A stretch of DNA of 61,080 bases from contig JAICYR010000002.1 of NCBI GenBank assembly GCA_025934135.1, positions 1 through 61,080 of the forward strand, written 5' to 3'. Position numbers and translations under genes: made by a program. Positions 23,168 to 38,658 of the stretch are shown here, piece after piece. Numbering within the stretch: the stretch's first letter is position 1; each line of letters begins with the position of its first letter. Below the pieces are notes generated by a model. The model searched no databases, was not told the origin of the DNA, and saw nothing but the letters and a program-made list of their open reading frames with translations. The DNA is from Acidobacteriaceae bacterium (lineage in GTDB: Bacteria; Acidobacteriota; Terriglobia; Terriglobales; Acidobacteriaceae).

Positions 23168-23214
23168 GGGTGCCCCATCCTTTCGCGCTTGCTTCATCGC
23201 GCGAAAGGGTGGGA
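23168..23214 (+). repeat. Palindromic repeat, family A (copy 3)
   Basis: GGGTGCCCCATCCTTTCGCGC pairs with GCGCGAAAGGGTGGGA around a short loop. It is one of the best-paired copies. It lies 11 bases after the obg stop and could act as a transcript end for the convergent genes. Confidence 0.85.
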
Positions 23215-23236: not shown

Positions 23237-23266
23237 GGGTGCCCCATGTCTCGCAGAGACATGGGA
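23237..23266 (+). repeat. Palindromic repeat, family A short form (copy 4)
   Basis: GGGTGCCCCATGTCTC-GCA-GAGACATGGGA is a perfect 10-bp hairpin with a three-base loop. The same 30-base sequence occurs at 32655-32684. It keeps the family A head but has a different stem. Confidence 0.85.
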
Positions 23267-24594: not shown

Positions 24595-24634
24595 GGGTGG
24601 CCCATTCAAGCCCGGTTTTGGCTTGAGTGGGGGA
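24595..24634 (+). repeat. Palindromic repeat, family B (copy 1)
   Basis: GGGTGGCCCATTCAAGCC pairs with GGCTTGAGTGGGGGAC around a short loop containing GGTTTT. It lies upstream of the STAS gene and of the MFS gene. Confidence 0.8.
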
Positions 24635-24729
24635 CAAGCGAAACAAAAATTCACACCCCTCCCGCCATATTGATGTACGCTTGTAGGCCAGTTCCCTCTC
24701 CCAATCTCCGAGCATCAACCGGGGGAAGC

Positions 24730-26019: not shown

Positions 26020-26146
26020 TACGATGCTCCTTTCCTTTGAGCACCTCAGTCGGATGCGCCCCGCGGAGACCTCGTTGCAGCACTTTTGCTTGCATGGATA
26101 GGTGGCAGGTGGTCCTGATAACTCCGGTCGGGAACAACCGACGGTC

Positions 26147-26181
26147 GGCCCACACAACCCTGGGTCTTGGATTGTGTGGGG
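26147..26181 (+). repeat. Palindromic repeat, family B variant (copy 2)
   Basis: GGCCCACACAA and ATTGTGTGGGG pair around a short loop. The arms differ from the other B copies on both sides in a compensating way: TCAA/TTGA has become ACAA/TTGT. The element lies between the 3' end of the helicase gene and the hemerythrin gene. Confidence 0.7.
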
Positions 26182-26198
26182 AAAAGCTCTATCCGGTC

Positions 26199-27404
26199 TT
26201 ATGCCGTCTGCGCCACCTGGTTCGCACGCACCCGGAAGTGCTTCGTCGTGATCGCCAGCGTCTTCTCCATCTTGCGCAGCAATGTCCTCTCATCAGGAGC
26301 CGCGAACGTGGAAGCCACTCCCTTGGCCGAGTTGCGCCCCGTGCGCCCGATGCGATGCACAAAGTCCTCGGCCTCGCGAGGCATGTCGTAATTGACAACG
26401 TGGGCCACATGGGCCACATCGATCCCGCGCGCGGCCACATCTGTCGCCACAAGCACCCGATGCCCACCCTGAGCAAAGCTCTTCAGCGCGGCATTGCGCT
26501 GCGACTGCGAGCGGTCGCCATGGATCTGCGTGGCCGTGTGCCCCGAACGCTTCAGCCTGCGCGCCACGCGGTCCGCTCCATGTTTCGTGCGAACAAACAC
26601 CAGAAAGCTTCCCTTGCTCTGCCCCAGCAGGTGCTCGAGCAACTCCTGCTTTTTGTCAGTCGGGACCTCGAATGTCTGTAGCTCCACATTTTCGCAGGGC
26701 TTCAGCACCGACCCAATCTCAATGCGCGCCGGATTCCTCAAATAATCCCGCACTACTTCCTTGATCTGCTCACTCAGCGTTGCCGAGTAGCACATCGTTT
26801 GCCGCTCCTTGGGCAGCGCGGCGGCAATCCGCCGGATCGACGGCTTAAAGCCCATGTCCAGCATGCGGTCCACTTCGTCCAGCACCAGCATCTTCACGCC
26901 GCTCAGGTTCACCAACCTGCGCTCCAGATAATCCTCCAGCCGCCCCGGCGTCGCCACAATAATCCGCGCGCCGTTGCGGATCGCCTGCAACTGCGGCCCT
27001 TCGGCCATGCCGCCAACAACCAGCGCAATGGAATTGTAGTTGCCCGTCAGCTTGCGGTAGTGCTGCTCCACCTGCATCGCCAGCTCGCGCGTAGGCAGCA
27101 GAATCAGCGCCGAGCACCCCTTCGCCTTCGGCATCCGCTCAATCAGCGGAATCAAAAAGCTCAAAGTCTTGCCTGTGCCCGTCTGCGCCGTCGCCAACAC
27201 ATCGCGTCCTTCCAGTGCCGGAGGAATGGCCTGCGCCTGCACTGGCGTCGGAGTAATAAAGTTTGCCGCCGTAAGCTGCTTCTTCAGCCCGGCGGAAATA
27301 GAAAATTCAGAAAATTGGTTCACTTGGTCCTTGCGCCTGCGGTCGCGTTCATCCGCGTATCTCAAGATACGAGCCACCGCTGGCGTAGATAATTCCCTGC
27401 ACAC
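26199..27404 (-). CDS. DEAD-box RNA helicase (RhlE-like)
   Basis: This 401-residue helicase core has the Q motif (FITPTPVQAQAIP), AQTGTGKT, PTRELAMQ, TPGR, the Walker B box, SATL, ATDVAARGID and HRIGRTGR, all in order. The Walker B box reads DEVD instead of DEAD. There is no long basic C-terminal tail. A GTG at 27323 with AAGGA just upstream gives the usual start VNQFSEFSISAGL, so the first 27 residues of the track ORF may not be translated. About 245 bases of untranslated leader precede it, with a TATACT box near 27620 on the minus strand. Confidence 0.92.
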   Translation of the reverse strand: MCRELSTPAVARILRYADERDRRRKDQVNQFSEFSISAGLKKQLTAANFITPTPVQAQAIPPALEGRDVLATAQTGTGKTLSFLIPLIERMPKAKGCSALILLPTRELAMQVEQHYRKLTGNYNSIALVVGGMAEGPQLQAIRNGARIIVATPGRLEDYLERRLVNLSGVKMLVLDEVDRMLDMGFKPSIRRIAAALPKERQTMCYSATLSEQIKEVVRDYLRNPARIEIGSVLKPCENVELQTFEVPTDKKQELLEHLLGQSKGSFLVFVRTKHGADRVARRLKRSGHTATQIHGDRSQSQRNAALKSFAQGGHRVLVATDVAARGIDVAHVAHVVNYDMPREAEDFVHRIGRTGRNSAKGVASTFAAPDERTLLRKMEKTLAITTKHFRVRANQVAQTA

Positions 27405-31727: not shown

Positions 31728-31768
31728 GGGGTGCCCCATCCTTTCGCGCTCTTAGCGAAAGGGTGGGC
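31728..31768 (+). repeat. Palindromic repeat, family A (copy 5)
   Basis: GGGTGCCCCATCCTTTCGC pairs with GCGAAAGGGTGGG around a short loop. It lies about 10 bases before cassette E copy 1, in the gene-free stretch 31561-31896. Confidence 0.85.
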
Positions 31769-31778
31769 AAGGAAGCTT

Positions 31779-31897
31779 CGTATCATGGCATGGCTTCAGC
31801 CCATGCTGAAAAAATCAGCTCCGAAGGAGCGCACCTTGCTGCCGCAGGCCCGAGCGGAGTCGCAGACGAAGCGAGCCGCCCCCACGCCGCCAGCGGC
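31779..31897 (-). repeat. Repeat cassette E (copy 1), 3' of the antitoxin gene
   Basis: The 90 bases from 31808 match 32756-32847 with two substitutions and one indel, and a more diverged part extends to 31779. On the minus strand the cassette starts at the stop codon of the HTH gene and ends with GCTCC-TTCG-GAGC, then TGATTTTTTC, an intrinsic terminator with a UUCG loop. Confidence 0.8.
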
Positions 31898-32654: not shown

Positions 32655-32684
32655 GGGTGCCCCATGTCTCGCAGAGACATGGGA
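32655..32684 (+). repeat. Palindromic repeat, family A short form (copy 6)
   Basis: It is identical to copy 4 at 23237 over 30 bases, with a perfect 10-bp hairpin CCCATGTCTC-GCA-GAGACATGGG. It lies just upstream of the toxin promoter. Confidence 0.85.
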
Positions 32685-32730: not shown

Positions 32731-32847
32731 GTATCGGCATGCCTCCCGCCATTCCGAAAAAATCCGCTCCGAAGGAGCGTACCTTGCTGCCGCAGGCCCG
32801 AGCGGAGTCGCAGACGAAGCGAGCCGCCCCCTCACGCCGCCAGCGGC
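32731..32847 (-). repeat. Repeat cassette E (copy 2), 3' of the secreted-protein gene
   Basis: It nearly matches copy 1. On the minus strand it begins a few bases after the stop codon at 32852 and ends in the same UUCG hairpin GCTCC-TTCG-GAGC followed by GGATTTTTTC. It probably serves as that gene's terminator. Confidence 0.8.
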
Positions 32848-37750: not shown

Positions 37751-37846
37751 GGGTGGCCCACACCGGGGTCCCCACACCGGGGCCCCCGTGAACAGGTCTT
37801 CGTTCGTGGGGTGGACTCAAGCCTGGTTTTGGCTTGAATGGGGAAC
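37751..37846 (+). repeat. Family B repeat (copy 3) interrupted by element C
   Basis: GGGTGGCCCAC at the left and CTCAAGCCTGGTTTTGGCTTGAATGGGGAAC at the right are the two parts of a B element. They are separated by about 51 bases (37763-37813) that carry element C: CCGGGG..., AACAGGTCTTCGTTCG, TGGGGTGG. The C copy has a partial internal duplication of CCGGGGTCCCCACA. Confidence 0.75.
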
Positions 37847-37862
37847 AAACACTAAAACCTGC

Positions 37863-37949
37863 GGGTGCCCCATCCTTTCGCGCACCGGGGTCCCCGTGAA
37901 CAGGTCTTCGTTCACGGGGTGGTAGTCTTCATCGTGCGAAAGGGTGGGT
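37863..37949 (+). repeat. Family A repeat (copy 7) interrupted by element C
   Basis: GGGTGCCCCATCCTTTCGCGCA and TCATCGTGCGAAAGGGTGGG are the two arms of an A element. In its loop lies element C, 37885-37922. Element C is itself a hairpin: CCGGGGTCCCCGTGAAC pairs with GTTCACGGGGTGG around AGGTCTTC. Confidence 0.8.
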
Positions 37950-38127: not shown

Positions 38128-38190
38128 ATGTCATCCTGAGCGAAGACGCTCGCGCAAGAGCGCGAACGTCGAAGTCGAAGGATCTGCGGT
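38128..38190 (+). repeat. Dispersed repeat D (GTCATCCTGAGCGAAG type)
   Basis: The sequence TCATCCTGAGCGAAGACG at the left and GTCGAAGGATCTGCGG at the right are a form I recall as common between genes in this phylum. A fragment with CCTGAGCGAAGGTCGAAGGG appears again near 38425-38450. Confidence 0.5.
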
Positions 38191-38226: not shown

Positions 38227-38267
38227 GGGTGGCCCACTCAAGCCTGATTTTGGCTTGAGTGGGGGAC
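38227..38267 (+). repeat. Palindromic repeat, family B (copy 4)
   Basis: GGGTGGCCCACTCAAGCC pairs with GGCTTGAGTGGGGGAC around a short loop. It is an uninterrupted copy and shows what copy 3 looked like before element C. The rest of 38268-38658 contains no gene and no further clear signal. Confidence 0.85.
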
Positions 38268-38658
38268 AGCATTCTATAACTAAGTATTTGAAAAAGGCTG
38301 ACTTGCGCCCAACTCGTTGACCAGGGCTGACTTACGGCCGCCACCAGCCGCTAACTTAAACAAAAGAAAGGAAAACACGAGAATTTCGTCGAAAATCTCC
38401 GCATGGTGCGGGTGGCATACCCTGCCCTGAGCGAAGGTCGAAGGGTCTCGCTTTTGAGAAATGGGCCACGAGATCAATCAACGCCCATTCCTCCGGCCAG
38501 CCAGCCGAAGGTCAATCTAACTCATTGAAGCCAGAGAAGATTCTTACAAGTTCTCTGAAATCAATAAATTCCATGAAGGCTAATTTTCAGAAACCATATT
38601 AGAATCAATGAACTACAGTATCGACCATAAAAAAATTCGCCAAAAGCTGCCGCGACAT

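Follow-up and report, generated by a model that had tools for sequence, protein, structure and literature searches.

Family B palindromes of an Acidobacteriaceae genome as a probable REP family within a RAYT/REP system of Terriglobia

Palindromes in the window

The window analysed here, a stretch of 61,080 nucleotides from an Acidobacteriaceae bacterium (contig JAICYR010000002.1), carries several families of short palindromes in addition to its protein-coding genes (Table 1). The copy of family B at 24595 has an MFS transporter gene and a STAS-domain protein gene as neighbours, and the copy at 26147 has a hemerythrin-domain protein gene and a DEAD-box helicase gene. The copies at 37751 and 38227 both lie between a class II ribonucleotide reductase gene and a glycoside hydrolase family 2 gene.

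A preliminary description of this DNA had placed B copies at 24595 and 38227; both positions are exact, and each copy forms a 12-bp stem. For the former, the palindrome stands, but its sequence reads CCCAT rather than the CCCAC given earlier, resulting in a T.G wobble in the stem. Likewise, the exchange to ACAA/TTGT with retention of the stem holds for the copy at 26147, with a true span of 26143-26184 and a head decayed to GGTCGG. The copy at 37751 is indeed interrupted, namely by another hairpin (family C, see below), and its end is GAATGGGGAAC, not GAGTGGGGGAC. As single-stranded DNA, the 12-bp stem is predicted to fold at -10.9 kcal/mol in the copy at 24595-24635 (z -3.7) and at -14.6 kcal/mol in the copy at 38227-38267 (z -6.1). 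The predicted B fold has a 12-bp stem and a 7-nt loop; a REP search filter (PMC6006769) takes stems of 7-20 bp and loops of 2-5 nt.

Table 1. Coordinates of palindromes and hairpins in the window, with further loci of nested hairpin C
Feature	Position	Strand	Remarks
A-family REP copy	23168..23213	+	GGGTGCCCCATCCTTTCGCGC...GCGCGAAAGGGTGGG
REP, third stem type	23237..23265	+	CATGTCTCGCAGAGACATGGG
B-family REP copy	24595..24635	+	head GGGTGG 24595-24600, stem 24601-24612/24620-24631, tail GGAC
B-family copy, ACAA/TTGT variant	26143..26184	+	degenerate head GGTCGG; just 3' of DEAD-box helicase gene 26199-27404(-)
A-family REP copy	31729..31767	+	
REP, third stem type	32655..32683	+	as at 23237
Interrupted B copy, 5' part	37751..37761	+	GGGTGGCCCAC
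Hairpin C inside B copy	37762..37814	+	CCGGGG...GAACAGGTCTTCGTTC...GGGGTGG; partial internal duplication
Interrupted B copy, 3' part	37815..37846	+	ACTCAAGCC...GGCTTGAATGGGGAAC
A-family REP copy	37863..37948	+	loop filled by second C hairpin (about 37885-37922)
B-family REP copy	38227..38267	+	strict consensus
Nested C hairpins, further loci	L213, L218, L219, L224, L228-L231, L267, L274, L279		

Other repeats are present in the same stretch. An 83-bp direct repeat (31801-31883 and 32749-32831, 95% identical) lies near two ORFs, and part of it (CACCTTGCTGCCGCAGGC) recurs beside a C copy in genome G007 (L269). A dispersed repeat, TCATCCTGAGCG...CGAAGGATCTGCGG, is found at 38131-38190 and at about 38425-38455; at a further locus (L283), a C hairpin lies within a repeat similar to it.

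Repetition, covariation and setting of family B

The genome to which the window belongs (G000) is an assembly of 3.69 Mb in 300 contigs, 88% complete. The genome-wide search for more B copies suggested in the preliminary description returned 17 matches to a strict pattern and 27 to a looser one, against 0 for reversed-pattern controls; the refuting case named there, an absence of further copies, does not hold. The frame common to families A and B, GGGTGSCCCA...TGGG, gave 110 matches in this genome compared to 1 in the control. The looser B pattern is also present in the congeners G001 (23 matches) and G002 (7) and in a member of another genus, G012 (5); no copy was found in the genomes sampled from the sister family.

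Compensating changes in the B stem, proposed earlier from the copies in the window, are a property of the family. In 84 distinct B copies from several genomes, the variable stem pair is T-A in 56, A-T in 20, G-C in 3, G-T in 1 and unpaired in 4. It is thus complementary in 80 of the 84 copies, while 47 are expected, and none of 20,000 permutations reaches 80. The stem pair adjoining CCCA is C-G in 43 of the same copies, T.G in 40 and T-A in one. T.G wobble pairs exist only on the head-first strand, suggesting it as the functional strand.

Some four bases upstream of GGTG, conservation of B copies sets in abruptly, and it fades past GGGG(A/G)A. Most copies carry GTGG directly before CCCA, a conserved 5' tetranucleotide of the kind that REPs carry 0-2 nt from their hairpin; that of family A is GTGC and falls outside the strict GTAG/GTGG motif. 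B copies lie within ORFs in 27-36% of cases, compared to 70-78% for random positions, using a crude ORF set. Family B is a short repeated hairpin of 40 bases with a mostly extragenic location, as expected of a REP element.

A stable, covarying hairpin with an extragenic bias might instead be a structured RNA signal (a terminator, an attenuator or an mRNA-stabilising element) selected at gene ends rather than mobile DNA, and REPs can acquire such roles. The sequence following the hairpin offers little to this explanation: the bases are rich in GAA and GAC, and no T-run was found downstream, which speaks against B being an intrinsic terminator. Furthermore, an Rfam search of the window returned tRNAs only.

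The arrangement of copies was assessed in the congener G002. Among the elements listed there (at least 74, in a listing that extends to 3.85 Mb), 18 adjacent pairs lie within 300 bp of each other, against 0.4 expected, and the inverted pairs among them are oriented head-out in 11 cases and the opposite way in one; two of the 11 are the pairs that flank RAYT genes. This head-out arrangement agrees with published REPINs (PMC3116915). In the window's own genome, the listed REP clusters appear mostly to be in the same orientation. The GC skew computed from twenty 8-kb samples of G002 was too noisy to read a replication-strand bias.

RAYT genes of relatives and stem lineages

In relatives, inverted B copies flank transposase genes. 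More specifically, in G002 (Acidobacteriaceae bacterium ZG23-2, CP085323.1) a Y1_Tnp gene occupies 1030250-1030576, with one B copy to each side, at 1030050(+) and 1030640(-). RAYT genes with inverted B copies on both sides were found in G002, G003, G012, G021 and G029 (loci L121, L112, L184, L185 and L123, the first in G002 and the last in G012) and in further Terriglobia records; RAYT genes in G005 and G006 (L108, L114) have inverted flanks with the A stem, and at many more RAYT loci the head GGTG[GC]CCC[AG] is combined with other stems. Five RAYT proteins were tested against the NCBIfam model NF047646 and scored 105-116 bits (cut-off 80). The best PDB match of the linked RAYTs is TnpA_REP (4er8, E 5e-17), and the proteins in our RAYT alignment (A1) are 40-60% identical, with an invariant H-x-H, WQ and the tyrosine motif Y-x-H-x-NP. 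At L123 in G012, a break splits the RAYT frame, and half of a B copy lies there (1473-1491). A second, distant RAYT group occurs in the same bacterial family (L110, L111, L113), flanked by a perfect palindrome, GTATCAGGGCACGGCTTCAGCCGTGCC, that is unrelated to the GGTG head.

The identity of the linked transposase also bears on the notion that B, being short, repeated, extragenic and palindromic, is a MITE mobilised by a DDE transposase through terminal inverted repeats and leaving target duplications. The linked enzyme is of the HUH/Y1 type, the head is absent from the other end of the element, and flank conservation stops without a visible duplication; we consider this explanation to be the most improbable of those weighed here. 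An origin as RNA signals, which would leave both the inverted copies flanking RAYT genes and the tie between stem and clade described below unexplained, is only marginally less improbable. We regard family B as very probably a REP family within a RAYT/REP system of Terriglobia, and as a new acidobacterial representative of an already known type of element.

Scanning of public genomes yielded 80 RAYT loci, all titled Acidobacteriota. At 26 of these, the members of an inverted pair bearing the head have 6 nt or more of stem in common, as counted by a simple script that undercounts pairs differing only at a C/T wobble. From the 80 loci, 58 RAYTs with a readable flank were placed on a stem-labelled tree with SH-aLRT support and no bootstrap. 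A single branch (SH-aLRT 92) separates the B-flanked RAYTs (11 of the 58) from the others, and the B stem changes once on this tree compared to 10.3 times in shuffles (0/500). A smaller tree, from a set gathered separately but partly overlapping, contains the same B clade (91/83), and one member of its B group, L117, has a right flank of type B. The head GGTG[GC]CCC[AG] is retained in every RAYT lineage, each with a stem of its own. Because the B-flanked RAYTs form one clade, and other RAYTs of the group share the head with stems of their own, including that of A, families A and B represent two lineages within a single RAYT/REP system. This supports the earlier proposal, made from their common head and tail, that they are two lineages of one element: both flank homologous RAYT genes as inverted pairs.

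In the window's genome, 88% complete and in 300 contigs, no match to PF01797 was found at E<=0.001 and none to NF047646 at E<=10; the A1 query gave one match, at E 6e-4. With no RAYT detected, the B copies look orphaned, and they appear to have been left behind after the loss, or the non-assembly, of their RAYT. Orphan REP classes following RAYT loss are known in Pseudomonas and Stenotrophomonas (PMC3686654). Within the REP reading, a variant in which the copies remain active in this genome, with the RAYT located in its unassembled part, is possible, if rather doubtful: the incomplete and fragmented assembly leaves room for it and congeners do carry RAYTs, but three queries found none. Congener sequences corresponding to the helicase locus yielded no B copy, and the one from G006 has an A copy. 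In the empty-site comparison for B, congener intergenic DNA was too diverged to align at base level, with gene identity of 72-77%.

We propose that B is a non-autonomous palindrome that served as the end, or substrate, of a RAYT (TnpA_REP). The element would be recognised as single-stranded DNA on its head-first strand (GGGTGG-hairpin-GGGAC), with the RAYT reading the fixed head GGTG[GC]CCC[AG] together with a lineage-specific stem. The HUH/tyrosine active site would then cut beside the hairpin, and copies would be moved into extragenic DNA, often as inverted pairs (REPINs). The TnpA_REP proteins of E. coli and Stenotrophomonas act on the head-first single strand alone, which they bind and cleave beside the hairpin via a tetranucleotide; this tetranucleotide can guide the cut (PMC8266576). 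By analogy, B would likewise be cut on its head-first strand, and GTGG would be its tetranucleotide. Coupled change of RAYT and stem may have led to the divergence of A and B.

A nested third hairpin and comparison with known systems

Hairpin C, which interrupts the B copy at 37751, belongs to a third hairpin family with the consensus (C)CGGGGYCCCC..GRAC-loop-GTYC..GGGGTGG and compensating changes. Two patterns found 24 copies in the window's genome, 16 of which lie inside A or B, all in the orientation of the host, in a count made by eye from printed contexts and unblinded. Two of the 24 (contigs C205 and C247; L221, L222) are in a nearly identical context, reflecting duplication or assembly redundancy. 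The nested copies occupy the loops of A, or a single position at the base of the B stem, between CCCAC and ACTCAAG; in two C copies within B, ACT is repeated on both sides. Two more C copies in A loops were found in G003.

Nesting could arise by separate insertion of C into hairpins, which the variety of A stems among the hosts favours, or by the spread of composites through recombination; a chimera with the 5' part of A, a C copy and the 3' part of B (C151:7242) fits recombination between C copies. A folding test of joined C flanks against random joins was mixed: in A-type hosts the junction is spanned by 11-19 pairs, but the z-scores are variable, and many C copies that are not nested look unremarkable. 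The nesting occurs in at least two species. That C is a mobile hairpin preferentially entering other hairpins is a tentative suggestion that falls somewhat short of being probable. If the nestings are separate insertions, the target would be single-stranded hairpins, and C would be a gene-less element targeting REPs. REP-targeting insertion sequences (PMC1525189) also lie inside REP palindromes; unlike them, C is about 37 nt long and without a gene.

The REPtrons of Pseudomonas and Stenotrophomonas (PMC3686654, PMC3116915) resemble the system described here in having short head-plus-hairpin repeats whose numerous stem classes share one head, inverted cognate copies around RAYT genes, inverted doublets, and orphan REPs in genomes without a RAYT. 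They differ in that here fixed CCC[AG]/[CT]GGG basal pairs come after the head GGTG[GC] and the stem is longer (12 bp for B), the hosts are Acidobacteriota, and the window's genome has no detected RAYT. The nearest solved homologue of the linked RAYTs, E. coli TnpA_REP (4er8; PMC8266576), shares the HUH motif, the single tyrosine and a 5' tetranucleotide beside the hairpin; GTAG and an obligatory bulge characterise the REPs of E. coli, whereas B has GTGG and a continuous stem (PMC8266576). The TIRYT/TIRtron group of Acidobacteria (PMC3733652) is found in the same phylum and comprises Y1 transposases with inverted-repeat flanks, some of them repeated in the genome. Compared by description only, its repeats are long terminal inverted repeats, several with GGGGWSAS, and self-complementary tracts occur in only some of them.

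The follow-up thus adds to the preliminary description the REP identity of the palindromes and their link to a transposase. In the nested C hairpins, the order of insertion can be read, and they may represent a hairpin-targeting element. More broadly, Acidobacteriota gain a well-documented RAYT/REP system in which a single head is combined with many stem families. Its natural pairs of RAYT and stem (A, B and about a dozen others) are suited to testing how a single-strand transposase reads a hairpin, and since the B stem is found on one RAYT clade across many Terriglobia, the residues that confer specificity can be sought by comparison with sister RAYTs.
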